From a virus, in the IMG/VR virus record IMGVR_UViG_3300047455_000186, positions 1-56,264 of that record: 56,264 nt of DNA, one strand, 5' to 3'. Both the position numbers and the translations under genes were made by a program. A model generated the notes under the pieces. It was given only the letters and a program-made list of their open reading frames with translations. It was not told the origin of the DNA and did not search any database. Shown here in pieces: positions 4,192 to 54,122 of the stretch; the stretch's first letter is position 1, and each line of letters begins with the position of its first letter.

Positions 4192-6879
4192 ATGGCTAAT
4201 CGTTTTTTAAATAACATAACGATTAATGATGAGTACACTCTGCCAAGTGCAGATGGTACAATAAATCAGATAATCACAACAAATGGAGCGGGGCAACTCA
4301 GCTTTGTAGACCAAAGCACCGTCGCTGCGGGAACTGCAACTTACGCGACCACCGCAGGCACCGCTACATACGCAACCAGCTCGGGAAGTTCAGATACCGC
4401 TAAATCATTGATTATATCTGTTAAAAATTCTACAGGTACTACAATCCCGGCTGGGTCAGTTGTGTGTTTTGATAACTCTGTTGCTACGCCTTCCGGAAAT
4501 GTTATACCTGTAAAACTAGCAGATAGTAATGGCACTGATTCGATGCCTGGTGTAGGTATTACAACCGGCGCGATATTAGATACCTCTACGGGTCAAGCGA
4601 TAATGTTTGGCCATGTCTCAGGGTTTGACACTTCTTCTTATTCTACTGGGGATACTTTATATGTTAGCGATGTACCTGGTGAGTTCACGACTTCAAGACC
4701 GCGTAATGTAAGATATATTCAAAAAATTGGTATAGTAGTAAAAGTACACGCTTCTAATGGATCATTAGAAATATTTGGAGCAGGTCGTGTAAATGATGTG
4801 CCAACACCTTTATATATAGACCACCCTAACCAAAGAGTTGGTATTGGTGCTTCTTTCCCGTCTGAAATATTAGATATAGAAGGAGCAGATCCCTCGGTAT
4901 TAATAAAAAATACTACGTTTGGCTCAGGAGAATCTTCTTTAGTTTTTAAAACAGCAATGGGAGCTACTAATTCTTTTGCCTTAGATTCGACTAATGATTT
5001 AAATTACAAAAACACCCTGGGTGCATCAATTTTTACAATAGAGAACGGCGGCTTCGTTGGGGTTGGAACTACAGACCCAAGATGTCCTTTGCAAGTGTCT
5101 TCAGACGAAATTGATACTGATTTTTTAATAGAATCGGGTAACACACAAGCCAGGATGTCGATAAACAATACTTCGACGGGTGACTCGCAAATTAATTTTC
5201 AGCTGGGTAACACTAGTAGATTTACTATGGGTGTGGACAATTCCGATAGTGATAAGTTTAAAATATCAGGGGGCGCAGCCTTGGGGAGCAGTGATATGAT
5301 AGTTTTAGATTCCACGGGCAACGTGGGGATTGGGACAACTAGTCCTAGTGAAAAACTTCACGTTGTTGGCTCAGCTCTTATTGAGGGCTCAAGTACAGAA
5401 TTAAAAGTAAAAGGAAGCGGGAGCTACGACACAGCTAATATTGTTATGGGTAACGCTGCTCATGATAGCTTTTCAATAGATACTCGAAACGATCCAGGCG
5501 ATAATAAAACAACTCTCAGTTTTGATTCTTATCTGACAACGGGTACATCAGCAATAACGCTTGGCGATAATTATGTAAATTTAAGTACAGCCGGCTCAAC
5601 CCGGTTGGTGATCAATTCTTCGGGCAATGTCGGGATCGGGACGGGTAGTCCTGATACAAAACTTGATGTTGCAGGCAGAGCTGTTATAGGAACTGGTAAT
5701 ACACTTACTAACGCAACTAACGCTACCGTAATAGGTAATAGCAATAACCTTACAAGCGATACTATTGTCGATAACTACACAAATTTGGTTCTTGGGGATT
5801 ATGGCGCGGGTCGTTATGCCAATACTGTAATTAGCGATAGAACATTAAGATTGGGTAGAGCAGATATTATTTCTAATTCTTCTTCCAACACAACTGGTAT
5901 ATTAAATTTTAATGATTCTGCAGAGGCTAACGCTGCTTACTCTAACGTAGGTGGGTTCGTAGGCTACTTCCCGCCGCCTACAACTACAAATGGGTATTAC
6001 TTTTTCAGCGCCTTCAGCGAAAACGTACAAGGTAGTGCTTTCCAGGCCGGAGGAAGTCCAACAGCTTCCAGAATGAACATGTCAATGGATCCTAACTTAG
6101 ATTGCGTTGGCTATAAATTTGATTCTAATACTAGTAGCGGAGGCGGTGTTTATTACACTGCAAGTCAAAACAACGCTAACGCTTCTTCTAGAGGTATTGT
6201 AACTTTTGATTGTAGACATCAAAACCAAAACTACGAAGCGCCAGACGGGCACAGCTTATTTGAAATAACTTCTGGTTATGGCAGAACTAAATTCATTGTA
6301 AAGCAAGCGAATGGCCAATCTAATGTTGGAATTGGAACTTCGAGCCCTCAGGCGCAGCTGCATATAGGTGATTCACAAAGTAATGATTCGGGACTGAGGT
6401 TTACAACAATAAACGGAGGTAATAACGATGCGGTTAACATGCACTTCTTAGGAACTCAGCCATTTTCTCCTTTTTATATATCTAGGAAAAATACAGGTGG
6501 AGCTGAAATACAACTCCAGTATGACGGGGATATAATATTAAATGGCAATAACGGCGATAATGTTGGGATTGGCACAACCCAACCACAACAGCAACTTCAC
6601 GTAGCTGGTACATCTTTATTTGGTGGTAATATTTATTTTGGAACAGGCACGTCTAATTATATAAATGGAACCGGGGGTGGTTTTAATGTTTACGCTAATA
6701 GCAATTTAAAATTCGCTGTTAAATACGGAGGACACACAGAGGTGTATGACGATTTAGAAGTGGACGGGGACATGCTCTGCGAGGTTGTTGGTAAAGGCTT
6801 AGTGTTAAAATCGCCAAATGGAACAAGATATAGAATAAAAGTAGACAATAGCGGTAATTTATCAACAGAAACATATTAA
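4192..6879 (+). CDS. Long tail fibre with repeated N-V-G-I-G-T-x-x-P motifs
   Basis: 895 aa. Six copies of a V-G-[IV]-G-[TA]-x-x-P motif start near residues 216, 289, 377, 479, 711 and 790, usually followed by L-H/D-V-x-G. This repeat is widespread in phage fibres and bacterial surface proteins, often upstream of an endosialidase-type (S74) chaperone. No S74 domain is apparent here: the protein ends with a short tip (G-K-G-L-V-L-K-S-P-N-G-T-R-Y to S-T-E-T-Y). An A-T-Y-A-T-T-A-G-T-rich stretch at residues 45-65 looks like a flexible or coiled shaft. Most likely a trimeric fibre for receptor binding. Confidence 0.8.
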   Translation: MANRFLNNITINDEYTLPSADGTINQIITTNGAGQLSFVDQSTVAAGTATYATTAGTATYATSSGSSDTAKSLIISVKNSTGTTIPAGSVVCFDNSVATPSGNVIPVKLADSNGTDSMPGVGITTGAILDTSTGQAIMFGHVSGFDTSSYSTGDTLYVSDVPGEFTTSRPRNVRYIQKIGIVVKVHASNGSLEIFGAGRVNDVPTPLYIDHPNQRVGIGASFPSEILDIEGADPSVLIKNTTFGSGESSLVFKTAMGATNSFALDSTNDLNYKNTLGASIFTIENGGFVGVGTTDPRCPLQVSSDEIDTDFLIESGNTQARMSINNTSTGDSQINFQLGNTSRFTMGVDNSDSDKFKISGGAALGSSDMIVLDSTGNVGIGTTSPSEKLHVVGSALIEGSSTELKVKGSGSYDTANIVMGNAAHDSFSIDTRNDPGDNKTTLSFDSYLTTGTSAITLGDNYVNLSTAGSTRLVINSSGNVGIGTGSPDTKLDVAGRAVIGTGNTLTNATNATVIGNSNNLTSDTIVDNYTNLVLGDYGAGRYANTVISDRTLRLGRADIISNSSSNTTGILNFNDSAEANAAYSNVGGFVGYFPPPTTTNGYYFFSAFSENVQGSAFQAGGSPTASRMNMSMDPNLDCVGYKFDSNTSSGGGVYYTASQNNANASSRGIVTFDCRHQNQNYEAPDGHSLFEITSGYGRTKFIVKQANGQSNVGIGTSSPQAQLHIGDSQSNDSGLRFTTINGGNNDAVNMHFLGTQPFSPFYISRKNTGGAEIQLQYDGDIILNGNNGDNVGIGTTQPQQQLHVAGTSLFGGNIYFGTGTSNYINGTGGGFNVYANSNLKFAVKYGGHTEVYDDLEVDGDMLCEVVGKGLVLKSPNGTRYRIKVDNSGNLSTETY

Positions 6880-7628: not shown

Positions 7629-7652
7629 TTAATTAAATTAAATTAAATTAAA
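7629..7652 (+). repeat. TTAAA tandem repeat leading into groEL start codon
   Basis: TTAA followed by four perfect TTAAA units ends exactly at the A of the groEL ATG (7652). Shorter versions precede the ORF at 12561 (two units, 12547-12556) and the primase on the minus strand (just upstream of 51375). It replaces any purine-rich ribosome-binding site, so it may be a translation enhancer of the A/T-rich kind used by Bacteroidetes, or part of a promoter. Confidence 0.5.
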
Positions 7653-9205
7653 TGGAATACAATAATCCGAGCGAAATAGTAAAAACGCTCACTTTCGGCA
7701 GTGATGCTAAAAAACAAATTATCCAAGGCGTTGAAAAATTATCAAATGCTGTAAAGAGCACATTAGGCGCTTCAGGTAAATGTGTAATATATGAAGATGC
7801 CCTTGGTAGGCCGGTGATAACAAAAGACGGTGTAACCGTTGCAGAAAGCGTAGTCTTATTACATCCGGTTGAAAACATAGGGGCAACCTTAATAAAGGAA
7901 GCTGCTAGTAACACTGTAAAAGAAGCTGGAGACGGCACAACAACATCAACTGTGTTAGCACATTCGTTGTTAAAAATTGCAAACAAAAAATTAGATGAAG
8001 AAGAAGTTAGAGAACTTAAAGCAGGCATTATTAGTGGCGCTAACAAAGTTAAAGTATATCTTGATAAGTCCAGTACTCAAGTTGAAGGCGAAATGCTTAA
8101 AAATGTTGCTATCATTAGCTGCAATAACGACGAAGAGCTTGGAACCAAAATTGGCAAAGCTTATGAAAAAGTTGGAAAAAATGGCGTCGTATTAATGGAG
8201 GAATCCGATACAAACGAAACTTATGTTGAGTTTGTTGACGGAGCACAATTTGACAGCGGGTTAAAAACAACACATTTAGCTACTGATAAAAATAAAGGGA
8301 TAGCTGTATTAGAAAATCCTTTTGTACTTATAGTATCTTCACCGATACCGAATATTAGAAGAATACAGAATGTGCTTGAGCACACTATAAAACAAAAAAG
8401 AAGCTTACTAATTGTAGCTGACGTAGAGCAGCAGCCTTATGCAACTCTTTTAGCAAATAAAGTTAAAGGTAATATAAAGGTAAATATAGTAGATCCGCCG
8501 GGGTTTGGGCCAACCAAGCAGCAGACGTTAGAAGACTTAGCGATGTTGACGGGGGCGAAGATCATAAATGAGGAGTTAGGAGACGATTTAGATTTAATAG
8601 ACCCTAATGTACTAGGCAATGCGTTTAAAGCTGTTACGGACGATAAAAACACTGTTTTACAAGTAGAAGAGATTAACGAAGAAATTGCTTTGCGCATAAT
8701 TGACGTTGAAAAACAAATAGAAGAAGAATCTAACCCGTTTTTTAAGAAAAAATTAGAACAAAGATTGTCAATGCTCACTGGCCAAGTCGGTATTGTATAT
8801 GTTGGGGCAGATTCTAAGGTAGAGTTAAAAGAAAAGAAAGACAGGGTCGAAGACGCAATACACGCTACTAAAGCAGCTTACAAAGAAGGTATAGTTGCTG
8901 GTGGAGGTGTAGCTTTATTAAACGCCTCTACATTATTAAAAGCTAAAAATAAAGGCGAAGAGATATTGCTAGAAGCAATAAGATCACCATACGAGACTAT
9001 ATTAGAAAATGCCAATATACCTATTGCATATCCTCAAATTAAAAATAGAGGTATAGATGTTAAAACAGGTAAAGATGTTAATATGATTAAGGCTGGAATT
9101 ATAGACCCTGTATTAGTTACTAAGTCAGCATTGAAAAACGCTGTAAGTGTAGTAACGACTATAATATCTGCGGATTGTGTAATCAGTAATAAAAGGTTGG
9201 CATGA
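7652..9205 (+). CDS. groEL: Phage chaperonin GroEL
   Basis: 517 aa, about 30 shorter than E. coli GroEL, mainly because the Gly-Gly-Met C-terminal tail is missing. The protein forms rings that fold client proteins using ATP. Equatorial nucleotide-site elements are present: T-L-G-A-S-G (residues 37-42; the usual P-K is changed to A-S), T-K-D-G with D59, G-D-G-T-T-T with D94, the catalytic Asp D401 in V-E-D-A-I-H-A-T-K-A-A, and G-I-V-A-G-G-G. The apical domain has V-D-P-P-G-F-G and L-A-M-L-T-G. All positions needed for ATP hydrolysis seem intact, so it is probably active. It overlaps the downstream groES by ATGA, reversing the usual bacterial groES-groEL order. Likely helps fold abundant virion proteins. 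Confidence 0.95.
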   Translation: MEYNNPSEIVKTLTFGSDAKKQIIQGVEKLSNAVKSTLGASGKCVIYEDALGRPVITKDGVTVAESVVLLHPVENIGATLIKEAASNTVKEAGDGTTTSTVLAHSLLKIANKKLDEEEVRELKAGIISGANKVKVYLDKSSTQVEGEMLKNVAIISCNNDEELGTKIGKAYEKVGKNGVVLMEESDTNETYVEFVDGAQFDSGLKTTHLATDKNKGIAVLENPFVLIVSSPIPNIRRIQNVLEHTIKQKRSLLIVADVEQQPYATLLANKVKGNIKVNIVDPPGFGPTKQQTLEDLAMLTGAKIINEELGDDLDLIDPNVLGNAFKAVTDDKNTVLQVEEINEEIALRIIDVEKQIEEESNPFFKKKLEQRLSMLTGQVGIVYVGADSKVELKEKKDRVEDAIHATKAAYKEGIVAGGGVALLNASTLLKAKNKGEEILLEAIRSPYETILENANIPIAYPQIKNRGIDVKTGKDVNMIKAGIIDPVLVTKSALKNAVSVVTTIISADCVISNKRLA

Positions 9206-9459
9206 AAGCGATAAATCACTTTGTAATTGTAGATAAGATAAAAGAAGCGCCGTCAAAAGTAGGCGGACTAGAACTTACTGAAAAACAAAATAAAGATGTA
9301 CGTTACATTAAAGGCAGGGTTATTAGCGTAGGCGACCAGATAGACATGCTCCAAGATGGAGACTTGGTTAGGTATGATCGACACGCAGGGCATGGCATTG
9401 AATGGAAAGATCATTTGTATTATGTTTTAAAAATTTCAGATATAGTACTTATAGAATGA
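9202..9459 (+). CDS. groES: GroES-like co-chaperonin
   Basis: 85 aa, shorter than E. coli GroES (97). It shows the co-chaperonin plan: N-terminal beta-strand (H-F-V-I-V-D-K-I), a mobile-loop region with G-G-L-E-L-T (compare G-G-I-V-L-T of GroES) that would bind the GroEL apical domain, R-V-I-S-V-G-D, D-G-D-L-V-R-Y-D, and a C-terminal strand Y-V-L-K-I-S-D-I-V-L-I-E. The ATG lies inside the groEL stop (ATGA), so the two are translationally coupled. Likely partner of the phage GroEL, perhaps also of the host one, as with T4 gp31. Confidence 0.85.
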   Translation: MKAINHFVIVDKIKEAPSKVGGLELTEKQNKDVRYIKGRVISVGDQIDMLQDGDLVRYDRHAGHGIEWKDHLYYVLKISDIVLIE

Positions 9460-9896
9460 GGCTAAGCGGGCAAGACTTGCAAGATATGAATTTATTAAAG
9501 TATTACAGGCTTATCAGAAGATGGGCCTGTAAAACTTACAATTTAAAAGATGCTGATTTGGAGCTGCTTATTTATTTAGATTGCAAAAAGCTTTTTACAC
9601 GTAATGATTTTATTAATGGCGTATACACTTATAGCTGGGATAAAAACAGATGGGAGCGGCTGCGCAGAGAAGGGTGGATTGATGTTTTTAAAGAGCGCAA
9701 TAGAACAACCTCAAAATACGCGGCGTATAAAACGTCAAACAAGTGTAAATTACTTATTAAAAGAATATATAGAATAATGTTGGCCGAAGAAGATTTGCCA
9801 ACGTCTGAAAGAAGTGCATTTTATAAAAACAAAACATATACTGATAAAGTCTTTAACAAGGCTATTGAAGATATGATTAACGATAAAGAACGATAG
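9456..9896 (+). CDS. Putative winged-helix DNA-binding protein
   Basis: 146 aa from the ATG at 9456, which overlaps the groES stop (ATGA); a longer in-frame start at 9402 lies inside groES and is not preferred. Residues ~10-40 hold a helical stretch (Y-Y-R-L-I-R-R-W-A-C-K) followed by L-K-D-A-D-L-E-L-L-I-Y-L and then W-E-R-L-R-R-E-G-W-I-D-V-F, an arrangement like MarR-type winged helices with a recognition helix and wing. The protein is strongly basic. I recall near-identical proteins in flavobacterial phages. It could regulate late genes or bind packaged DNA; the function is inference. Confidence 0.6.
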   Translation: MRLSGQDLQDMNLLKYYRLIRRWACKTYNLKDADLELLIYLDCKKLFTRNDFINGVYTYSWDKNRWERLRREGWIDVFKERNRTTSKYAAYKTSNKCKLLIKRIYRIMLAEEDLPTSERSAFYKNKTYTDKVFNKAIEDMINDKER

Positions 9897-9897
9897 C

Positions 9898-10047
9898 ATG
9901 AAAAAAGGAATAGGACCAAACAATTTAGGAGCGCCAAAATCTCCTACAAAAATATTAGGTGCAATTGCTGGAGCAGTAGCGCCGGCATTAATTAAAGGCG
10001 CGGCGGGTGCGTTGGCTGGAAAATTAATGGGCGGTAAAAAAGAGTAA
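9898..10047 (+). CDS. 49-aa Ala/Gly-rich protein with S-P-T-K
   Basis: Begins 1 nt after the upstream stop, and its TAA shares an A with the next ATG (TAATG at 10045-10049). The N-terminal half carries K-S-P-T-K, a version of the S-P-x-K motif found in several small proteins here. The C-terminal half (G-A-I-A-G-A-V-A-P-A-L-I-K-G-A-A-G-A-L-A) is a glycine-zipper-like hydrophobic helix with a basic end, G-G-K-K-E. Possibly membrane-active or a minor virion component. No further recognition. Confidence 0.6.
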   Translation: MKKGIGPNNLGAPKSPTKILGAIAGAVAPALIKGAAGALAGKLMGGKKE

Positions 10048-10424
10048 TGGCATTTAAGTTAAAGTCTAAAGGCGAAATATTCGGCATCAACGAAGAGTTA
10101 TCTGAGTTTGGTAGACCAGTGTTTGAAAAATCTTTGGACAATGGCGTTATAGCTGAAGCGAATAGAGACGGCACTACTTTTATAAACAAAAATGTCTCTG
10201 CTCAACAAAAAAAAGAAGCGGTAGATCACGAAAACGTACACCACGATCAAATGCTTCAAAATAGATTGCAATATAGCAATGAGGAAGTGATTTGGAAAAA
10301 AGACACTAGATCTCCTGCTAGAAAATACGAAAGAGTTGGAGGAGCGCTTTTTAGCGCGGGCCAAAAGCTACAAGAAGGACACGCTTCATTTGAGTGGGAA
10401 GATGAAGCTTATAAAAACGATTAA
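10047..10424 (+). CDS. Small HExxH (zincin-like) protein
   Basis: 125 aa. A canonical zinc-protease helix H-E-N-V-H lies at residues 61-65 within V-D-H-E-N-V-H-H-D-Q-M, and candidate third-ligand acids follow at E79/E80 and E113/E117. There is no signal peptide. Its ATG overlaps the previous stop. Known HExxH proteins are mostly metallopeptidases; here it could mature virion proteins or act on cell wall or host protein. The protein is shorter than most zincins, so activity is uncertain. It sits among the small S-P-x-K proteins. Confidence 0.6.
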   Translation: MAFKLKSKGEIFGINEELSEFGRPVFEKSLDNGVIAEANRDGTTFINKNVSAQQKKEAVDHENVHHDQMLQNRLQYSNEEVIWKKDTRSPARKYERVGGALFSAGQKLQEGHASFEWEDEAYKND

Positions 10425-12015: not shown

Positions 12016-12155
12016 TGGAGATAAAAGGATTAGGGGATACCATAGAAAAATTTACAAAAGCAACTGGAATAAAAAAGCTAGCCGATAAAATCCCTGGCGG
12101 GTGCGGTTGTAATAAAAGAAAAGAAAAGTTAAATAAAATGTTTCCATACAAATGA
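12015..12155 (+). CDS. 46-aa C-G-C protein
   Basis: Begins in a TAATG junction with the preceding gene (12013-12017) and ends in an ATGA junction with the holin (12152-12155). Its signature is G-G-C-G-C-N-K-R-K-E-K-L-N-K-M-F-P-Y at the C-terminus, a conserved ending I recall from many marine phage small proteins next to a holin. The N-terminal half is an amphipathic helix (K-F-T-K-A-T-G-I-K-K-L). Possibly a lysis or membrane-associated accessory; inferred from position only. Confidence 0.7.
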   Translation: MEIKGLGDTIEKFTKATGIKKLADKIPGGCGCNKRKEKLNKMFPYK

Positions 12156-12550
12156 AAAAAATTTGGGAATGGCTTACCGGTAATGTTATAAAAGAAGTTG
12201 GTGATGTCATTGATAAATTAACCACAACTAAAGAAGAAAAATTAGAAGCTCAGCGGTTAATAACTGAGATTCTTGAAAAAGCAGATAAAGAAGCACAAGA
12301 GCAAGTAACAGCAAGATGGCAAGCGGATATGAATTCAGATTCGTTTTTATCTAAAAACATAAGGCCCATGGTTCTTATATATTTAACTGTTATCTTTACA
12401 GCACTATGTTTTTTTGATGGCAATATAGGAGAGTTTAAAATAGCAGAAGACTATATACCAATTTTTCAATCTTTATTAATAACAGTTTACGGGGCGTATT
12501 TTGTTGGGCGTACCTGGGAAAAAGCAAAAAAATCCAGCAATAACAATTAA
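12152..12550 (+). CDS. Holin (GTA/3-TM holin-like)
   Basis: 132 aa. An amphipathic N-terminal region (1-60, W-E-W-L-T-G start, then an E/K-rich helix) is followed by S-K-N-I-R-P-M-V and two clear membrane segments, residues ~73-89 and ~104-122, ending G-R-T-W-E-K-A-K-K. This matches the 'holin of 3TMs, for gene-transfer release' type, whose first helix may lie along the membrane. It would permeabilise the inner membrane so the endolysin can reach peptidoglycan. The endolysin is ~30 kb away at 42951, so lysis genes are split. Confidence 0.75.
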   Translation: MKKIWEWLTGNVIKEVGDVIDKLTTTKEEKLEAQRLITEILEKADKEAQEQVTARWQADMNSDSFLSKNIRPMVLIYLTVIFTALCFFDGNIGEFKIAEDYIPIFQSLLITVYGAYFVGRTWEKAKKSSNNN

Positions 12551-12821: not shown

Positions 12822-13017
12822 TATAGGTAAAGACTATAAAAATGACGCCATGCACTACTCTGTTGGACAGGAAGTGTATGGTGGTCATACTATAGTTAAC
12901 ATTATAGAGGAAGAAGAAAAGTACTCTGTCTATATACAAAAAGGCAATGATGTTATACCCTGGAAAGATTTTAATAAAAATATGGCAATAGCCATTGAAT
13001 ATAATATTGAATACTAA
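12799..13017 (+). CDS. Small conserved phage protein
   Basis: 72 aa. It overlaps the previous gene by 23 nt; no later in-frame start preserves the well-formed N-terminus L-L-R-K-I-S-I-G-K-D-Y-K-N. Then M-H-Y-S-V-G-Q-E-V-Y-G-G and alternating beta-strands (S-V-Y-I-Q-K-G-N-D-V-I-P-W). It looks like a small beta-barrel. The A of its TAA is the A of the next gene's ATG (13017). Function unknown. Confidence 0.65.
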   Translation: MTLLRKISIGKDYKNDAMHYSVGQEVYGGHTIVNIIEEEEKYSVYIQKGNDVIPWKDFNKNMAIAIEYNIEY

Positions 13018-13607
13018 TGAATGGGGTTTTTGATTTTATTATAAAACCAGTTAGCAAAAGATACAATAATTCTAAAACAATTGATAATACAGAGCTAATA
13101 TTAAATACCGATTTACAGGATCATAATTTTGTTTCAAGGATAGGTGTTGTAATGGGTTTACCTATAAATAACCAAACAGGTATATGCTTAGGCGATGAAG
13201 TTATTGTGCATCATAATGTTTTTAGAAGATACAGAGATATTAGAGGTATTGAAAAAAATAGCAGAAGCTATTATAAAGATGATTTATATTTTGTAAATGA
13301 AATGCAAATATACGCTTATAAGCATATAATTAAATGGATACCATTAACGGGATATAACTTCGTTGCCCCTATAAAAGAAGACAAAATGTTTTCTATTGAT
13401 TTTGAAAAACCTTTAAAAGGCATATTGAAATATAAAGATCCAGCTTTAAAAAGTATAGAGCCTGGGGATATAGTCGGTTTCCGACCTGGTATGGAATATG
13501 AGTTTATTATTAATAAACAAAAATTGTATCGCATACCAACCAATCAAATTACAATTAAATATGAATATCAAGGAAACGAAGAAGAATATAATCCAAGCTG
13601 GGCATAA
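13017..13607 (+). CDS. Putative tandem GroES-like beta-barrel protein
   Basis: 196 aa. Two segments look like the C-terminal half of a GroES barrel. In residues ~40-113, a V-V-M-G-L-P strand is followed by L-G-D-E-V-I-V-H-H-N, then Y-Y-K-D-D-L-Y-F-V and Q-I-Y-A-Y. In ~133-185, K-G-I-L-K-Y is followed by E-P-G-D-I-V-G-F-R-P, Q-K-L-Y-R-I-P and N-Q-I-T-I-K-Y. GroES itself has G-D-x-V-x-F, x-Y-L-I-M and D-I-L-A-I at matching places. It lies just upstream of the terminase genes. It could be a second, diverged co-chaperonin or a virion barrel protein; motif-level inference only. Confidence 0.5.
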   Translation: MNGVFDFIIKPVSKRYNNSKTIDNTELILNTDLQDHNFVSRIGVVMGLPINNQTGICLGDEVIVHHNVFRRYRDIRGIEKNSRSYYKDDLYFVNEMQIYAYKHIIKWIPLTGYNFVAPIKEDKMFSIDFEKPLKGILKYKDPALKSIEPGDIVGFRPGMEYEFIINKQKLYRIPTNQITIKYEYQGNEEEYNPSWA

Positions 13608-13836
13608 AGCAGTTGAAGAATTAATTAAAGTAGCTAAAGAGGCTATAGTCGATTCAGATGATGATATATCTGCTGACAGGCTTAAGAACGCAGCTGCTAC
13701 AAAAAAGTTAGCTATATTTGACGCTTTCGAGATATTATCTCGTATACAAGATGAAGAAGCTATATTAGAAAATAAACCTAAAGAAGAAGAGAAAGCAAAA
13801 ACTTTTTCAGGGTTTGCAGAAAGAAGATCTAAATAA
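13561..13836 (+). CDS. Probable terminase small subunit
   Basis: 91 aa from the ATG at 13561, overlapping the upstream gene by 47 nt and sharing the final A with the TerL ATG (13836). Mostly helical: H-K-A-V-E-E-L-I-K-V-A-K-E-A-I, then S-A-D-R-L-K-N-A-A-A-T-K-K-L-A-I-F-D-A-F-E-I-L, ending S-G-F-A-E-R-R-S-K. Small terminases are short, helical and encoded directly before TerL; they bind the phage DNA end and regulate the large subunit. No HTH was confidently identified, so the call rests on position and overall form. Confidence 0.6.
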   Translation: MNIKETKKNIIQAGHKAVEELIKVAKEAIVDSDDDISADRLKNAAATKKLAIFDAFEILSRIQDEEAILENKPKEEEKAKTFSGFAERRSK

Positions 13837-16046
13837 TGTACGAGCAAAATTTATATAGAGTAGATACTCCTATAAAAGCTAATACAATAGCTAGATTAAA
13901 TAAATCAAAAAAGTGGAAGTACGGTTATAACAAAGAACACGATGTTGTAGTTATAAGTAAGACTGGGCAAATCGGTGAAATATATAATATTCAAAATTTA
14001 AGAATTGCATTACCAAAAACTCCCGCTAAAATAGACAAGTCACAGGATAAATGGGCTGCAGATGAGTACCCTAGCGAATTAAAAAGAATACAAAGCGTTT
14101 TTGATTGGCGAGAATATCCGGAAGACTTCAAAGAAAAATGGGAACCATATATAGATGAACAATTCAAACGCAGAGAAGAAGGCCATTGGTTCAATAATAA
14201 AGGCATGGCTACTTACATTACTGGCACTCACTTTATGTACTTGCAGTGGAGCAAGATTGACGTTGGGAAGCCAGACTTTAGGGAAGCAAACAGACTATTC
14301 TTTATATTCTGGGAAGCTAGTAAAGCAGACCCACGATGTTATGGAATGTGCTATCTTAAAAACCGTCGTTCAGGATTTTCATTTATGTCTTCAGCAGAAA
14401 CCGTTAACCTGGCGACAATTACGTCAGATGCACGGTATGGTATCTTGTCTAAGTCTGGAGCGGATGCTAAGAAAATGTTCACAGACAAGGTTGTACCAAT
14501 ATCCGTCAACTACCCGTTCTTTTTCAAGCCAATCCAGGACGGTATGGACAGACCCAAAACCGAACTTGCCTATAGAATACCAGCCAGTAGACTCACTAGA
14601 AAATCCATACAAAATAAACAAGACCAGGAATTATTGGAGGGGCTCGACACCACAATCGACTGGAAGAACACAGGCGACAACTCATATGATGGAGAGAAAC
14701 TTAAACTCCTCGTCCACGATGAATCGGGTAAATGGGAAAGGCCGGACAACATCCTCAACAACTGGAGGGTTACGAAAACAACATTAAGGTTAGGTAGTAG
14801 AGTTATAGGTAAATGTATGATGGGGTCGACATCTAACGCTTTAGATAAGGGAGGTGAAAACTTTAAAAAACTTTACAATGACTCGGACGTTACAAAAAGA
14901 AACCGCAATGGACAAACTAAGTCAGGATTATATTCTTTGTTCATTCCTATGGAATGGAATTACGAAGGATTCATTGACAATTATGGAATGCCTATATTCG
15001 AAGACCCACCAGCAGATTGCGTTGGCCCACACGGAGACGCTATCGAAGTCGGGGTTATTGAACATTGGAACAATGAGGTAGAAGGATTAAGAGGCGACCA
15101 GGATGCTTTAAATGAGTTTTATAGGCAGTTTCCGCGCACAGAAGAGCATGCGTTTAGAGATGAAACTAAAAATAGTATATTTAATTTAGTAAAAATATAC
15201 GAGCAAATAGATTATAACGAAGATCTGTCAAGCACTAATGTAGTAAATATTGGTAGCTTTTCGTGGGAAAATGGAATAAAAGATACTAAGGTTAAATTTA
15301 CACCAAACCCTAACGGTAGGTTTAAAATAACTTGGGTCCCTAATTATGAATTGCAAAATAAGCAATACACAAAAAACGGTTTTAAATTTCCAGGGAATGA
15401 ACATATTGGCGCTTTCGGGTGTGATAGTTATGACATATCAGGGACAGTTGATGGCAAAGGGTCTAAGGGAGCATTGCATGGGCTAACTAAGTTTAGTATG
15501 GAAAATGCCCCACCAAATTCATTTTTTTTAGAATACATTGCAAGACCTCAAACTTCTGAAATGTTTTTTGAAGATGTGCTTATGGCTTGTGTATTTTATG
15601 GAATGCCCATATTGGCTGAAAATAACAAACCTAGGTTGTTGTACTACTTTAAAAGAAGAGGATACAGAGGCTACTCAATGAATAGACCAGATAAGATATG
15701 GAATAAGTTATCGGTAGCCGAAAAAGAAATAGGCGGAATTCCAAACTCAAGTGAGGATATTAAACAAGCCCACGCAGCCGCTATAGAGGCTTATATAGAT
15801 AAATATGTAGGCTTAAAAGCAGATGGGCAATATGGGGACATGTATTTTAACACCACCCTAAACGATTGGGCAAAATTTGATATAAATAAAAGAACAAAGT
15901 TTGATGCGGCTATAAGTTCAGGGCTTGCTATAATGGCTTGTAATAGACATTTATATAGACCAGTTGCTCCTGTTCAAAAACAAAAGTTAAATTTAAATAT
16001 TGCTAAATATAAAAATAGCGGTACAATATCGAAAATAATAAAATAA
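13836..16046 (+). CDS. Terminase large subunit
   Basis: 736 aa, the DNA-packaging motor at the portal: an N-terminal ATPase drives translocation and a C-terminal nuclease cuts concatemers. A leading segment (1-100) precedes the ATPase, with a deviant P-loop in Y-L-K-N-R-R-S-G-F-S (K175 to S182) and G-I-L-S-K-S-G-A-D-A-K-K. The nuclease's first acidic cluster is A-F-G-C-D-S-Y-D (D530, D533). It lies directly upstream of the portal. Bases ~14200-15100 use many more C-ending codons than the flanks; the reading frame is intact. The length is larger than T4 gp17 and similar to crAss-like terminases. Confidence 0.92.
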   Translation: MYEQNLYRVDTPIKANTIARLNKSKKWKYGYNKEHDVVVISKTGQIGEIYNIQNLRIALPKTPAKIDKSQDKWAADEYPSELKRIQSVFDWREYPEDFKEKWEPYIDEQFKRREEGHWFNNKGMATYITGTHFMYLQWSKIDVGKPDFREANRLFFIFWEASKADPRCYGMCYLKNRRSGFSFMSSAETVNLATITSDARYGILSKSGADAKKMFTDKVVPISVNYPFFFKPIQDGMDRPKTELAYRIPASRLTRKSIQNKQDQELLEGLDTTIDWKNTGDNSYDGEKLKLLVHDESGKWERPDNILNNWRVTKTTLRLGSRVIGKCMMGSTSNALDKGGENFKKLYNDSDVTKRNRNGQTKSGLYSLFIPMEWNYEGFIDNYGMPIFEDPPADCVGPHGDAIEVGVIEHWNNEVEGLRGDQDALNEFYRQFPRTEEHAFRDETKNSIFNLVKIYEQIDYNEDLSSTNVVNIGSFSWENGIKDTKVKFTPNPNGRFKITWVPNYELQNKQYTKNGFKFPGNEHIGAFGCDSYDISGTVDGKGSKGALHGLTKFSMENAPPNSFFLEYIARPQTSEMFFEDVLMACVFYGMPILAENNKPRLLYYFKRRGYRGYSMNRPDKIWNKLSVAEKEIGGIPNSSEDIKQAHAAAIEAYIDKYVGLKADGQYGDMYFNTTLNDWAKFDINKRTKFDAAISSGLAIMACNRHLYRPVAPVQKQKLNLNIAKYKNSGTISKIIK

Positions 16047-16049
16047 CGT

Positions 16050-18476
16050 ATGGCTGAGTCAGTTGTAAAAAGTTTTTTTCCTAGCCAAGTTGCTAGTGAC
16101 GAAGAAAAAATGTCATCAGAGTATGGCCTTCGGGTAGGTAGAGCTATTCAGGACGAGTGGTTTAAATCAGACTCCGGCACTTCGAGATATAGAAGCAATC
16201 AAAATACATTCCATAATTTAAGGCTATATGCTAGAGGTGAACAACCAATACAAAAGTATAAAGATGAATTATCAATAAACGGTGATCTATCTTATTTAAA
16301 TTTAGATTGGAAACCCGTTCCTATTATATCAAAGTTTGTTGATATATTAGTTAACGGTATAGCTGAAAGAGCTTTTGATATAAAGGCATATTCACAAGAT
16401 CCTTACGGGGTGAGCAAACGAACAGCTTACATGGAATCTATCATACGTGATATGCAAACGAAAGAGCTAAATGAATTTGCGGAAGCTGAATTTGGTATTA
16501 ATCTTTTTGAAAATGATCCAGAGCTTTTACCTGACAGCCAGGAGGAGTTAGAGCTGCATATGCAACTGACATATAAGCAAGCTGTTGAATTAGCGGAAGA
16601 GCAGGCAATACAAACTTTGTTAAACGGTAATAATTATGATTTAACAAAGAAAAGAGTTATATACGACCTATCTGTTATAGGTATTGGAGCTGTAAAAAAT
16701 AGATTTAGCAAATCCGAGGGTGTCGTTGTTGATTATGTTGACCCCGCTAATTTAGTTTATTCGTACACTGAATCACCGTATTTTGATGATATATACTATT
16801 GCGGTGAAGTTAAAAGCATACCTTTAAATGAATTAAAAAAGCAATTTCCTGATTTAACGCAAGAAGATCTTGAGCAAATATCCAAGCAAGGCTTTCAAAA
16901 TAACGGCTTTTACGATAGAACAATAAGAAATTACGATCAGTCTGATAGCAATACGGTACAAGTATTGTACTTTAATTTTAAAACTTACATGAACGAAGTT
17001 TACAAAGTTAAAGAAACAGCTACAGGCGCAAGTAAAATACTTGTTAGAGATGATCAATTTGATCCACCCATAGAGGAGCTTGAAAAGAATTTTGGTAAGT
17101 TATCTAGATCTTTAGAAGTTTTATATGAGGGCGTTTTAGTTTTAGGCACTAATTATTTGCTTAAATGGGATATGGCAAAAAATATGATGCGACCAAAAAG
17201 CGATCATACTAAGGTGCTTATGAACTACAGCATTGTAGCTCCAAGAATGTATAAAGGTAAAATAGAATCTATAGTCAGCCGCATAACAGGGTTTGCCGAT
17301 ATGATACAGCTGACGCATCTTAAATTACAGCAAGTAATGTCAAGAATGATACCTGACGGCGTTTATCTTGATGCAGATGGTTTGGCTGAAATAGATTTAG
17401 GTAATGGAACAAACTACAACCCGCAGGAGGCATTAAACATGTTTTTCCAAACAGGTTCGGTTATAGGTAGGTCTATGACCCAAGAGGGAGACATGAATCC
17501 TGGCAAAGTCCCTGTGCAAGAAATAGCAAGCGGGTCTGGCGGTCAAAAATTGCAGTCTTTAATATCTACGTATAACTATTATTTACAAATGATACGTGAC
17601 GTAACGGGACTTAATGAAGCTAGAGATGGTAGTGCCCCAGACTCAAGAGCTCTTGTTGGCATTCAAAAAATGGCAGCGGCAAATTCTAATACAGCAACAA
17701 GACATATATTAGATGCTGGTCTTTTTATAACCGCTCAAATTGCAGAATGTTTGTCATTAAGAATATCAGATATATTAGAGTATTCACCATCAAGAGACGC
17801 GTTTATACAAAAAATAGGTGGTCATAATGTTGCTACATTAAAAGAAATGTCTGATTTGCATCTTTACGATTTTGGTATATTTTTAGAATTAGCTCCAGAT
17901 GACGAAGAGCGTTCTATGCTGGAGAACAACATACAAACCGCATTATCCGCGGGACTTATAGATTTGTCAGACGCTATTGATATAAGAGAAATAAAAAATC
18001 TTAAACTAGCAAACCAAGTTTTAAAAATACGCAGGAAGCGTAAGCAGGAACAAGATCAATTAATCCAGCAAGAAAATATTCAAGCACAAGCACAAGCAAA
18101 CGCCCAAGCGCAAGAGGTAGCTGCCGCCGCTGAAGTACAAAAGAATCAAGCTTTAACTTCTCAAAAAGCTCAGCTATTACAAATGGAAAATAATTTTGAA
18201 TTGCAAAAAATGCAAGCTGAAGTTGCAGCTAAAAAAGAGTTGATGGCTCAGGAATTTCAATATAATATGCAGTTAAAAGGTGTCGAGACATCAGGTCAAG
18301 CACAGAAAGAAACGCAAAAAGAAGACAGAAAAGACGAAAGAACTAAGCTGCAAGCAACGCAGCAAAGTCAACTTATAGAACAAAGAAAAAACAATACACC
18401 TCCACAAAACTTTGAATCCAGCGGAAACGACATTATTGGCGGAGGATTTGACTTAGGTTCTTTCGAGCCTAGGTAA
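16050..18476 (+). CDS. Portal protein
   Basis: 808 aa, follows TerL by 3 nt. Portals form the dodecameric ring at one capsid vertex through which DNA enters and leaves. Recognisable features: an N-terminal head region with N-T-F-H-N-L-R-L-Y-A-R-G-E-Q, a W-K-P-V-P-I-I-S-K-F-V-D segment, and a central V-T-G-L-N-E-A-R-D-G-S-A-P-D-S region typical of long podovirus portals. Residues ~650-760 are a long Gln/Ala-rich coiled coil, resembling the barrel extension of P22-like portals. Size and arrangement are like crAss-like portals. Confidence 0.9.
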   Translation: MAESVVKSFFPSQVASDEEKMSSEYGLRVGRAIQDEWFKSDSGTSRYRSNQNTFHNLRLYARGEQPIQKYKDELSINGDLSYLNLDWKPVPIISKFVDILVNGIAERAFDIKAYSQDPYGVSKRTAYMESIIRDMQTKELNEFAEAEFGINLFENDPELLPDSQEELELHMQLTYKQAVELAEEQAIQTLLNGNNYDLTKKRVIYDLSVIGIGAVKNRFSKSEGVVVDYVDPANLVYSYTESPYFDDIYYCGEVKSIPLNELKKQFPDLTQEDLEQISKQGFQNNGFYDRTIRNYDQSDSNTVQVLYFNFKTYMNEVYKVKETATGASKILVRDDQFDPPIEELEKNFGKLSRSLEVLYEGVLVLGTNYLLKWDMAKNMMRPKSDHTKVLMNYSIVAPRMYKGKIESIVSRITGFADMIQLTHLKLQQVMSRMIPDGVYLDADGLAEIDLGNGTNYNPQEALNMFFQTGSVIGRSMTQEGDMNPGKVPVQEIASGSGGQKLQSLISTYNYYLQMIRDVTGLNEARDGSAPDSRALVGIQKMAAANSNTATRHILDAGLFITAQIAECLSLRISDILEYSPSRDAFIQKIGGHNVATLKEMSDLHLYDFGIFLELAPDDEERSMLENNIQTALSAGLIDLSDAIDIREIKNLKLANQVLKIRRKRKQEQDQLIQQENIQAQAQANAQAQEVAAAAEVQKNQALTSQKAQLLQMENNFELQKMQAEVAAKKELMAQEFQYNMQLKGVETSGQAQKETQKEDRKDERTKLQATQQSQLIEQRKNNTPPQNFESSGNDIIGGGFDLGSFEPR

Positions 18477-19733: not shown

Positions 19734-21170
19734 ATGGCATTTGCAACTACGCCAACCACGTTGGCAAACTTAAGTCACTTAACCCCACGCCCTATTAAAG
19801 GGTTGTTTGGTGACAACTATCTTTCTGTAGGAGAGATGGATTTTACACAACAATTTCTACCTGAAGTATACGAAAAAGAAGTAGAGAGATACGGTAATCG
19901 TACTATCTCTGGATTTTTACGTATGGTTGGGGCAGAAATGCCTATGGCTTCTGACCAAGTAGTATGGTCTGAGCAAGGGCGTTTACACATCGCTTATGAT
20001 GACGTAGAAGTAGTAGACACAACTAATTTAACTTTCCCAGCTGGTCACTTGATTGGTCCAGGAATGACAATCGTTGTATCTAAAGGATTTACAACTCAAA
20101 AAGCATATGTGAAGGCTGTAACAGGGCAGAATGTAGAAGTAGACACTTACGGTGAAGTATCAGGTATTACAGTTACCGGTACTGATGTAAAAGTATTTGT
20201 TTACGGTTCTGAGTATTCTAAAGGAACTTCACAAGCTGGTAATTCAGTTGACGCTTCTTTCACAACTTTCAACAACAAGCCAATTATTCTTAGAGATAAG
20301 TATAATGTGAATGGTTCTGATGTTGCTCAAATTGGTTGGGTAGAAGTAACTACTGAAGCTGGAACTTCTGGATACCTATGGTACTTAAAGTCTGAGCACG
20401 AAGCTCGTATCCGTTTCGAAGATCAACTTGAAATGGCTATGGTTGAGGCAGAGAAATCATTAAATATCGATGGGACTACAAGAGATATCGCGCAAGCTGC
20501 TGGATTCGGTGGCGGTGGTACAATAACTGGTTCTGACGGTTTATTTTCTGTACTTGAAACTCGTGGTCTTGTATACAATGATGCTAATTTTGGAGAGGTT
20601 CCACCAGCAGGTGGTGGTGCACCAAGCCCAGGTTTAGCTGAATTTGACACTATATTAGCTGAGCTTGACAAGCAGGGAGCAATTGAAGAAAACATGCTTT
20701 TCTTAGACCGAGCTACTTCTTTATCAATTGATAATATGCTTGCACAGCAAAATACTTATGGAGCTGGCGGTACATCTTACGGTGTATTTGACAACTCTGC
20801 AGATATGGCATTAAACTTAGGTTTCTCTGGATTCCGTAGAGGTTCTTATGACTTCTATAAAACTGACTGGAAATATCTAAACGATTCTACTACTCGTGGA
20901 TTAGTTGCTGATGTGGATGGCGTTTTGGTACCAGCTGGAACTTCAACAGTTTATGATCAACAATTAGGGAAAAATATCTCACGACCATTCCTACACATCC
21001 GCTACAGAGCTTCTGAAGCTGATGACCGTAGATTAAAGTCTTGGGTAACTGGTTCAGTTGGTGGTAACTTCACAAGCGACGCGGATGAAATGAATGTTCA
21101 TTTCTTATCTGAAAGAGCGCTATGTGTACAAGCTGCTAATAACTTCGTATTGTTGAAATCAACAGTCTAG
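19734..21170 (+). CDS. Major capsid protein
   Basis: 478 aa, likely HK97-fold, forming the icosahedral shell. The start M-A-F-A-T-T-P-T-T-L-A-N-L and segments such as G-N-R-T-I-S-G-F-L-R-M-V-G-A, L-W-Y-L-K-S-E-H-E-A-R-I and L-G-F-S-G-F-R-R-G fit podovirus-type MCPs of this size. Arg codons include many CGT/CGC, unlike the AGA/AGG-rich neighbours, consistent with high expression. A terminator-like hairpin follows (21186-21230). Identity rests on position, size and sequence character, and is strong. Confidence 0.88.
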   Translation: MAFATTPTTLANLSHLTPRPIKGLFGDNYLSVGEMDFTQQFLPEVYEKEVERYGNRTISGFLRMVGAEMPMASDQVVWSEQGRLHIAYDDVEVVDTTNLTFPAGHLIGPGMTIVVSKGFTTQKAYVKAVTGQNVEVDTYGEVSGITVTGTDVKVFVYGSEYSKGTSQAGNSVDASFTTFNNKPIILRDKYNVNGSDVAQIGWVEVTTEAGTSGYLWYLKSEHEARIRFEDQLEMAMVEAEKSLNIDGTTRDIAQAAGFGGGGTITGSDGLFSVLETRGLVYNDANFGEVPPAGGGAPSPGLAEFDTILAELDKQGAIEENMLFLDRATSLSIDNMLAQQNTYGAGGTSYGVFDNSADMALNLGFSGFRRGSYDFYKTDWKYLNDSTTRGLVADVDGVLVPAGTSTVYDQQLGKNISRPFLHIRYRASEADDRRLKSWVTGSVGGNFTSDADEMNVHFLSERALCVQAANNFVLLKSTV

Positions 21171-33673: not shown

Positions 33674-36600
33674 ATGTCAAAATATAAATTAGCAAGCGGA
33701 GAAGTTGTTGATACTAAGGACTATACTGAAAATCAACTTACTTACTTTAAATACAAAAATCCTGACGCAGGCATTGTGGAGGATTTTCAAAACGGAGCTG
33801 TGGGGACGGATGCGCCTGCAACTCCAGTAATGCCAAGTCGAGCATCCATAATTGCGGGTGCTCCTCCTGCAAACGAACCCCCAAAAAAAGATGGGGATTA
33901 CAATTTTCTACTTGGTTCTGTGGAATCAGTAGAGAATCGTAGTAATGGAATAGTAGCACCTAACTCATATTTAATTGAAAACCCTGAAGAACGATTAGTT
34001 TTAGAGGAGTACACAAATAAAAGAGGAAGAAAAGTAAAGAAATACGCTGAGCCATCTCAGGAAGAAATACTTAGGGAAACCATAGATAACTTAGATGAAC
34101 CTGAATTTATTAGTAATTCAAGGGGTAGAAAAGTAAATAATCCTAAATACGTAAAGCCAGAAAATAGACCTTCACTAGAGGTTCAGACCCAGGCTTATAT
34201 AAAAGACAACGATTTAGACATTGAGTTTACCAATAATTATTTTAATCCTAAAGGCGAAACTTGGTTTGTAGATAAGTACTTTGGTAAAAAAGAGCTTGCC
34301 AAAGCTGGTTTAACAGAACTTGAGATGCAGGACTTCCAGGGTATGTTAATGCGGGATGATTTTATTGATGGTTTCGAAGAAGATGTTGCTGATGGTGTAT
34401 ATGGCGAGCTTGGCGGTATGATATATACAGGAGACGATAAAAAAGTTATACAAGTAACTAAAGAAAGAACTTTAGCTAGGAAGCTTAGCCAATACATGGC
34501 AGACCGGGACGACAGGCTAAACAATAAAATGCTTGTCAATAATATACTTGAAAACCCGGGTGACTTTGATCAAAGCATGTCGTTAGACGAAGTTAGAGAA
34601 GAAGCTTACAAAAATAGCAATATTGGCTATACAGGGTATGATCAAGAGGCTGTAAAAGCATACTTAGGCCAAAATTTTCCAGCATTAATGGAAAAAAATG
34701 CAAAAAATCAAGAAAAGAAAAACGAAGCTTACTTAAAAAGACGAGCTTGGAACGCAAGCACAAACACAGCTGACCAAGGGGTGGCTAATTTAGGTGAGTT
34801 TATTAAAGGTTTAGGCACTGGTTTTTATAAAAAGCTAGACGAAACCGCAATATGGATAGACGATACTATAGGTATATTTGGCGGCAACGAAAGGGCCAAG
34901 CAAATGCGTTTATTGAATATAGAAGATGAAATAGCGGACACTGATTCGCTAGAATACTTTTATGCTAGTGGTAAAGGCACGACTATTGGTAGCGACACAT
35001 ATATTAAAGACGAAAGAGGCAATATATATAACACAACAGAAGGCGTAAATGTAAGTCAAATATTAACTCCATTAGAGCTAAAATCTATTTCACAAACAAT
35101 TGACGCCGAAGGCAAACCAATGGACGACTTTAGTTTTCGTGGTGGTGCTATTATGGGTGGTGAAGTAACTGGCGGTATTGTTTTTGATGTAATAGGCACA
35201 AAAGGCTTGGGTACCGCTAGGGTAGCGGCATCAGCTGGTTACTTATCAAAAGCAAATAAATTAAGGTCAGCCAAAGGTTTAAAAGACATAAGCACAAGAG
35301 CGAGAGGAGCTAAAGGTAGGTTTATAAGTACCAAAGAAACTTTCGGAATGAAATTGCCATTTAATGCGCAAATGGTTGACGCTAGCATGTACTACTCCTT
35401 TGTAGGTGCTGTTACTGGGTATGAAAACACCATGAAAGCAGCTATGCAGGCAGGCCTCTCTAATGAAGTTGCTGAAAAATTAGCAGACGAAGCTCAGTTG
35501 TCAATGATGGCTCTTTACGGGGTTACAACTCCTATTAACCCAAGAATTGCTTTTGTAAACAAACTTGATGATATACTTATAAAAAACAAAGTTTTTGCAA
35601 CTGCTGTAAATGAGTATAAAAAAACAGGTAGTCAATTATCCTTTATCGAAAGTATTAAAAATCAAATTAAACAAACAGGCTTAACAACCACAGGTAAAGG
35701 AGTTGCGTTTGTTAAAGAAGGAACCAAAGAGTTTATTCAAGAAAACGTACAACAATTTGGGGAGGTCGAACTTGTTAATGAAAAAATAAACGAATCGGCT
35801 GGTATGGAATTAATGACCGCTGATTATAGCAAAGATGATTTTATTAACACATCTATATTATCTTTTGCAGCAGGCGGATTATTAGGCGGCTTAAGCGCCC
35901 CAGGATCACGTGTTAATTCTAATAAAAGATTACAAAATTTATATATACTTTCCCGCGATTTAAAAGGCACAAAAAAACGCTTTGACAGAATGATTGACGC
36001 TGGCAGATTGTCACAAGAAGATGCAGACGGTATACTAGAGCAGGCCAAAGCGGTTGGGAATTCAAGCAATAAGTTTCCTGCTTGGATGTTAAAGACTCCA
36101 GATGCCCTTATAGAAGCTGCGGTTGTGCAATCTAAAATAGAGGCAGCTACTAACGAAAGATCTCAGCTGGCGCCTCCTATGCGCACCGATGTTGATGCTC
36201 GCTTAGAAGGATTAAACAACGAATTGTTAGCTATAAGAAATAAAGCCGCTGATGAGTTAGTTGTTAAAGAAACCGAAACTATACAAGGTATTGTTGGTAA
36301 AGAAAATGTAACAGTTTATAATTCTAAAGCAGAAATGGAAGCTGCTGGATTATCAGACCTGGATATGAATTCAGATGGGTTTATTGAGGTTGATGGCAAA
36401 ATAATTATAAACAGAGAGCAAGCGGCTAATGCGCAAGCTATATCGGTCGCTTCACATGAGTTACTGCATAAAGTATTAAAGTCTGAATTTAAAAATAATC
36501 CTGAAATGAAAAGGGTTGTTGATGAATTTAAGCAAATACTAAAAAATAAAGGTGTATTTCAGCAAATTGAAACGCGAGCAGAGATGTATCGCCAGGAGGG

Positions 36601-53369: not shown

Positions 53370-54122
53370 TTACAGATAATCAATCACTTGGTTTGCGTCA
53401 GTGTTAGCGATAAGTTTATTTATAGCCTCCCTTTTTATCTGTGAAACACGTACATTTGCAGTGTTTACATTTATATTTAATTTGCCCGCTATATAATTAG
53501 CGGAGTGCTTGTCGCAATCCAAACCATATGATAATCTCAATACTTCATATTCAATACCTGTTAAGTGTTGTTTCATTAAACTTAACAAATAAGCATTGAG
53601 TAAATTTATATTGTATGGCTCAGAATTATCTGGTATTTGAAACAATGGGTTTTCTTCCTCTGTATTATAATTGGCATCTATACTAGAGAATATAGAATTA
53701 AAAAACATAGTAACGATTTTTTCGTCTTTAGGATTTTTACGTATTTCATTTAACTTGTGTTCAGGAATACGTATATCGCCCCGGTTAATATCAATTGCAC
53801 GTCTTATAGCCCCTTTAATTCTTTTGCTAAAAAAGCTTTTTAAAGTTTTTTCAATATCTTCAGAATCAATGAGCTTATCCCATTCTAATTTATCTACCGC
53901 TAACGTTAAACCCTTGTTGCCCTCTTGTATTAAATCATTTATACTTAATACACCAGAGGCTTGGTCAGAGGTCGCAAACTTACGGGCTAAGTTTTCCACA
54001 AGAGGCATGAACTTTATAATCATTTCATTTCTTGTGTAGTAATCATAAAACTTATTTTCAGGCATAGACCGTTTAAGATCTTCTTTGTACCTTATATAGT
54101 TTTGTACATTGTACTTTTTCAT
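53370..54122 (-). CDS. Phage sigma-70-family factor
   Basis: 250 aa. Region 2: I-I-K-F-M-P-L-V-E-N-L-A-R-K-F-A (~35-50) and I-N-D-L-I-Q-E-G-N-K-G-L-T-L-A-V (~61-76), then K-G-A-I-R-R-A-I. Region 4 (~186-240): L-T-G-I-E-Y-E-V-L-R-L-S-Y-G-L, A-N-Y-I-A-G-K-L and V-R-V-S-Q-I-K-R-E-A. It would redirect host RNA polymerase to phage promoters, likely for middle or late genes. It overlaps the upstream HTH gene by ATGA, so the two are coupled. Confidence 0.85.
   Translation of the reverse strand: MKKYNVQNYIRYKEDLKRSMPENKFYDYYTRNEMIIKFMPLVENLARKFATSDQASGVLSINDLIQEGNKGLTLAVDKLEWDKLIDSEDIEKTLKSFFSKRIKGAIRRAIDINRGDIRIPEHKLNEIRKNPKDEKIVTMFFNSIFSSIDANYNTEEENPLFQIPDNSEPYNINLLNAYLLSLMKQHLTGIEYEVLRLSYGLDCDKHSANYIAGKLNINVNTANVRVSQIKREAINKLIANTDANQVIDYL

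Follow-up and report, generated by a model that had tools for sequence, protein, structure and literature searches.

An apparently phage-specific groEL-groES pair and a predicted tandem-domain co-chaperonin in a family of marine viruses

Introduction

Among the co-chaperonins encoded by phages, gp31 of T4 is a Cpn10 without roof loops, and it has as its client gp23, a protein of about 56 kDa (PMC6318259). Viral GroEL genes were surveyed in the virioplankton, where, as far as the survey is cited in PMC9611531, gene order was linked to the GroEL phylogeny (Marine et al., 2017). Tandem co-chaperonins, on the other hand, have been reviewed as chloroplast-specific, and CrCPN20/23 combine with CPN10 into seven-domain hetero-oligomers (PMC5780408). 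The groEL-groES pair of phages is already known, and the analysis presented here adds a large marine family to this known kind. The window that was analysed is the whole length (56,264 bases) of a virus record. It carries the pair and, a few kilobases downstream, a gene for a second co-chaperonin-like protein (Table 1), which lies outside the interval described in the first-pass annotation of this DNA and was missed there.

Table 1. Features of the window discussed in the text
Feature	Position	Strand	Product and remarks
groEL	7652..9205	+	517 aa (55.9 kDa); predicted group I chaperonin, divergent, no GGM tail; profiles, ORF
groES	9202..9459	+	85 aa (9.8 kDa); without roof hairpin, mobile loop GG-LEL
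Third cluster gene	9456..9896	+	146 aa; ATGA overlap with groES stop
Holin	12152..12550	+	late/lysis region context
Second co-chaperonin-like protein	13017..13607	+	196 aa, Cpn20-like; profiles, AF2, Foldseek
Terminase large subunit (TerL)	13836..16046	+	context
Portal protein	16050..18476	+	context
Major capsid/virion structural protein	19734..21170	+	478 aa, 51.8 kDa; candidate main client

The chaperonin genes

The groEL product is a real but divergent GroEL, because it passes the cut-off of NCBIfam PRK00013 (449 bits against 397) but not that of the GroEL equivalog model (437 bits against 582). The PHROG groEL profile matched it at 9.5e-135 and PF00118 at 159 bits, and the GroEL models align to residues 11-514, covering the equatorial, intermediate and apical domains. 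For the residue comparison, 124 distinct GroELs of the family were set against 125 bacterial GroELs in E. coli numbering. The first-pass annotation had stated that all ATPase residues are kept, and T30, G32, K51, D52, D87, T89-T91, I150, D398, G415 and D495 are indeed present in the window protein; throughout the family these positions are 100% conserved, with the exception of G415 (97%). Two further departures that it had described turned out to be family traits: the GGM tail is found in 0/124 family proteins versus 98/125 bacterial ones, and the motif TLGASG in place of TLGPKG reflects the replacement of P33 by A in 100% and of K34 by S in 99% of the family. Full-length homology together with the ATP-binding and hydrolysis residues D52, D87, D398 and T89-T91 identifies the protein, at the level of sequence, as a group I chaperonin that is apparently ATPase-competent.

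The groES reading frame shares the ATGA at positions 9202-9205 with groEL, and both frames are intact. Its product scored 36.3 bits against Pfam Cpn10 (cut-off 21.1) and matched the PHROG GroES profile at 4.2e-12. The best solved-structure matches of its AF2 model, built from an alignment that, as for the tandem protein below, left out rows from annotated phage records, were all Cpn10, with the loop at low confidence. The modelled protein is a Cpn10 beta-barrel with a mobile loop. The columns of the E. coli GroES roof (48-55) are missing in 100% of family GroES proteins, and a shortened roof occurs in many bacterial GroES as well. In the mobile loop, LEL stands after GG at the place of the IVL tripeptide, as in most of the family, and 88 of 124 paired loci have an acidic residue in the middle of the tripeptide. 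The third gene of the cluster follows in each of the 138 relative loci whose flank is long enough; no confident family could be assigned to its product, which by eye has a winged-helix-like sequence.

Several positions that are altered in the family are those that serve, in E. coli, in GroES and substrate binding, in the R197-E386 and D83-K327 salt bridges and in inter-ring contacts. Y199 is replaced by L or I, L234 by Q (100%) and V264 by A, M or S, while L237 is retained; the contact residues that differ strongly from E. coli are Y199L, L234Q and V264A in GroEL and V26E in GroES. R197 became S or C and E386 mostly K; D83 became K or R, K327 is often D, and G375 is substituted. The loop at 424-440 is shorter by seven residues, with the E434 loop deleted in 124/124 proteins, conservation is lost at R452 (residue 452 is E in the window) and at S463/V464, and most members have a shorter 456-482 loop. 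Our reading of these sequence changes is that the GroEL-GroES interface is altered and co-adapted, and that the ring-ring contacts are possibly weakened. Because the contact residues diverge so strongly from those of E. coli, the activity of this GroEL with its GroES is something that we infer. Two stronger claims were tried and set aside. Co-evolution of GroES 26 with GroEL 264, 259 and 204 gave a strong raw association, which for the pair 26-264 comes down to no more than two changes on the tree, and a plain single-ring claim drawn from R452E and the shortened loops was reduced to a possibility, since the columns concerned are variable and poorly aligned.

Distribution, gene order and origin

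Scans of IMG/VR yielded 140 distinct relative contigs besides the window, with 63-100% GroEL identity. In all 161 relative loci that they provide, the two genes share a strand and groES comes after groEL, in most cases with an overlap; the locus L067 is an exception, with a gap of 255 bases. The first-pass description of a complete pair with groEL in front and an ATGA overlap is thus borne out by reading frames, profiles and relatives alike. The same annotation had called such a pair uncommon. It is a phage-encoded GroEL with its own GroES, as stated, but within this lineage it is not rare: besides the 140 of 140 relatives, it is found in 14 of 15 Elemovirus-type loci, all with groEL before groES (the remaining one ends at the contig edge), and in MW202828 and Maribacter phage Panino in the same order. 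The pair is also present in phi38:1, where groES comes first and one gene separates it from groEL, and in immuto, which like DAC23 has the order groES-groEL. In Panino (L084), the product of the CDS 5691-5957 is annotated as hypothetical, and profiles identify it as a GroES, which fits the mention of GroES by its authors. Among 18 other phage loci, mostly from Vibrio, Staphylococcus and giant phages, 12 had no detectable groES within the fetched flanks.

The order had further been taken as evidence against simple copying from a bacterial operon. This argument is weak, because Planctomycetota often carry groEL before groES (29 of 54 sampled GroEL loci, in a bacterial sample biased toward scan matches), and the non-host origin holds through the phylogeny instead. 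Many Planctomycetota/Phycisphaerae loci (e.g. L089, L106, L141) show this reverse of the usual bacterial order. In the sampled cellular Bacteroidota, groES precedes groEL wherever both genes lie together.

The closest cellular GroELs are about 42-43% identical to the window protein. In a tree of 123 rows the family formed a single clade (100), the stem of which measures about 1.1 changes per column, and a careful tree of 56 rows contained a split at 99/98 with the bacterial GroELs and immuto on one side and the family, phi38:1, Panino, elemoF and MW202828 on the other. The branching inside this phage group is unsure because its branches are long. A phylogeny against bacterial and phage GroELs had been proposed in the first-pass annotation as a check on a recent host copy, and no such placement was seen. 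Both genes are under purifying selection: for groEL, dN was 0.04-0.14 and dS 0.7-1.5, with dN/dS of about 0.05-0.1 in seven comparisons, and for groES dN/dS was below about 0.12 in the four pairs with computable dS, dS being saturated in three of seven. The presence of the pair in all 161 loci and a dN far below dS in both genes, wherever dS was computable, rule out chance as the reason for the pairing.

A predicted tandem-domain co-chaperonin

The 196-aa protein is predicted to consist of a tandem of Cpn10 domains, the first at about residues 1-103 and the second at about 105-183, followed by a conserved tail. It matched phrog_13932, 'co-chaperonin GroES', over its full length (7.6e-13), and the window GroES matched positions 112-197 of the same profile (2.2e-4). 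BLASTP found no similarity between the window GroES and the 196-aa protein, and the link is made through profiles and folds. In profile comparisons with GroES, the C-domain reached a probability of 94.6% and a score of 46.4, where 40 column shuffles gave at best 15.5, and the N-domain, which is weaker, a score of 27.6 (best shuffle, 16.1). The AF2 model (pLDDT 77) repeats in the C-domain (strands 113-118, 133-139, 152-155, 161-165, 168-174 and 178-182) the pattern of the GroES model (strands 7-12, 35-43, 55-59, 64-68, 71-77 and 81-84). For the whole chain, the top PDB matches in Foldseek were Chlamydomonas CPN20 and CPN23 (7ekq chains R and Q, named Cpn20 and chaperonin 23), with a TM of only 0.54 against CPN20 and 13% identity. 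Matches in BFVD include phi18:3 cpn10, and phage homologues are annotated as cpn10. According to these models, a single chain holds a pair of Cpn10 domains arranged head to tail, the assignment of the N-domain being the weaker one.

A mobile-loop-like motif is retained in the N-domain only, where G-x-E-L-L-L-N-T-E-L-Q-N resembles the phage GroES loop G-G-L-E-L-T-E-K-Q-N. The C-terminal tail YQGNEEEYNPSW is not part of a Cpn10 domain, is predicted to be disordered and is missing in MW202828 and elemoF. The tandem protein occurs in 49 of 61 relative loci with sufficient flank, and homologues were found in 77 phage records, among them Elemovirus, Callevirus, Panino and MW202828. A search of 296 Bacteroidota genomes, run without a positive control, returned 0 matches. 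A literature search found no paper joining cpn20, bacteriophage, tandem and co-chaperonin; this is not proof of novelty, and no double-barrelled Cpn20-like lid seems to have been reported from phages so far. Convergent fusion is probably the explanation of the likeness to plastid Cpn20, rather than common descent.

Genome context and host

The pair sits between a tail-fibre-like gene and a block encoding holin, terminase, portal and capsid proteins, in which the gene of the 196-aa protein immediately precedes TerL. TerL, portal and capsid match Bacteroidota podoviruses, namely MW202828 (TerL 62% identical), Elemovirus, Cellulophaga phages and Panino; a Shine-Dalgarno-like leader precedes only 3 of 27 plus-strand genes; and the contig of one relative (GroEL 67% and capsid protein 56% identical) was binned in a Sphingobacteriales MAG. 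These three observations, none of them proof, suggest that the host is most likely a member of the Bacteroidota. Contigs of related phages (L088, L338 and L339) were binned in the Sphingobacteriales MAG SW22112_bin_1, a hint at the host. Elsewhere in the window, positions 10047-10424 encode a 125-aa protein with an HEXXH motif (HENVH) and a weak PHROG metallo-protease match (0.019), present in 118 of 134 relative loci; an ORF of 2825 aa at 33674-42151 has no PHROG family match; and a predicted RNA polymerase sigma-factor-like protein (phrog_351, 1.6e-18) is encoded on the minus strand at 53370-54122, among replication genes.

Proposed function and alternatives

Sequence, fold, conservation, gene order, selection and phylogeny, as reported above, lead us to regard it as likely that the locus encodes a complete group I chaperonin of an old phage lineage, serving late in infection as a dedicated cage for virion proteins and provided with two kinds of lid; the clients, the timing, the ring state and the sharing of lids are the conjectural parts of this proposal. 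GroEL would be made together with GroES from the overlapping pair within the late (tail, lysis, packaging) block, would hydrolyse ATP and would capture non-native phage proteins, the most plausible clients being the 52-kDa capsid protein, similar in size to T4 gp23, and other virion proteins. These would be enclosed beneath a GroES lid purpose-built for the phage GroEL, and since this lid appears roofless like gp31, the top of the cage may be more open. The tandem subunit may either join GroES in a mixed ring or act as an alternative lid during head assembly and packaging. A mixed cap totalling seven Cpn10 domains, plastid-like, of independent origin within the Bacteroidota phages and linked with the assembly of heads and with packaging, is a tentative idea with a small chance of being right. 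The chaperonin of phi38:1, sister of that in the window, has been detected as a protein in infected cells (PMC13288928).

The origin and the working mode of the pair could be read in other ways. Recent capture of a groE operon from the host, which the phage would retain as a spare, would account for the full length of the group I chaperonin and for the GroES that comes with it, and the tree does place the GroELs of Acinetobacter MD-2021a, of Vibrio phages and of huge Bacteroidota phages with those of bacteria. For the window this origin is exceedingly improbable and was rejected, because the best cellular identity is about 43% and the family stands apart in the tree on a long stem; the opposite gene order of cellular Bacteroidota also speaks against it, although it is not the basis of this conclusion. 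By sequence, the window pair appears to belong to an old phage-specific lineage. An open single ring working independently of GroES, of the type of phiEL, OBP and AR9 and with groES as a leftover, would agree with the altered inter-ring positions (the E434 loop, R452, S463/V464 and the 456-482 loop), yet it is quite unlikely: groES is present and conserved in every relative and is under purifying selection, whereas the GroELs of phiEL and OBP are far more distant (about 25-29% identity, along a portion of the protein) and lack a neighbouring GroES, and the phiEL chaperonin shows no binding to E. coli GroES (PMC7185714).

The role of the tandem protein and the identity of the clients leave room for two further explanations. 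The 196-aa protein might belong to the virion or to the packaging machinery, with the Cpn10 fold re-used for a purpose unrelated to GroEL. Its gene lies directly before TerL in Elemovirus and Callevirus, with the portal gene nearby and always away from groEL, and the non-Cpn10 tail and the confinement of the loop motif to one domain point the same way, but its matches at E<=1 are confined to sampled phage groups having both GroEL and GroES, and the motif that it retains resembles the mobile loop of phage GroES; we consider this explanation doubtful, while granting it a real share of the probability. It is rather unlikely that the chaperonin serves chiefly replication or host takeover proteins: groES and groEL of phi38:1 do lie among replication genes, and in immuto-type phages the pair is beside DNA polymerase genes (PMC11348598), but in the window family it lies in the tail-lysis-terminase-portal-capsid block. 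If the proposed chaperonin with two lids is real, a phage that has both a GroEL and two differing lids would offer a natural way to test what gives rise to Cpn20-type fusions and how even-numbered lid subunits are used on a ring of seven-fold symmetry, and cultured relatives (Cellulophaga phage phi38:1 and Flavobacterium Elemovirus) make the system testable.

Comparison with known systems

One close counterpart is Elemovirus (Flavobacterium phage vB_FspP_elemo), in which groEL also precedes groES, with an overlap of 1 base, and a second co-chaperonin of 180-196 aa, annotated as 'co-chaperonin GroES' and not described as tandem in the record, is likewise encoded directly before TerL. It differs from the window in that its GroEL is 37% identical and its pair is on the strand opposite to the neighbouring structural genes. 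The viral chaperonins of the virioplankton, as far as the citation in PMC9611531 conveys, are similarly marine and of group I, with an order tied to phylogeny (Marine et al., 2017). Like the window GroES, T4 gp31 lacks the roof, and it is a fold match (1g31), but it is longer and partners the GroEL of the host, whereas the window phage has its own. The chaperonins of phages EL (gp146), OBP (gp246) and AR9 are, by sequence, also phage-encoded GroEL-like ATPases; these are giant phages of much lower similarity, and the records of EL and OBP have no adjacent groES. Finally, chloroplast Cpn20 (Chlamydomonas CPN20/CPN23) offers the parallel of a tandem Cpn10 chain alongside a single-domain Cpn10 (PMC5780408), whereas the protein of the window, 13% identical to it, belongs to a phage genome and carries the mobile-loop-like motif in its N-domain only.
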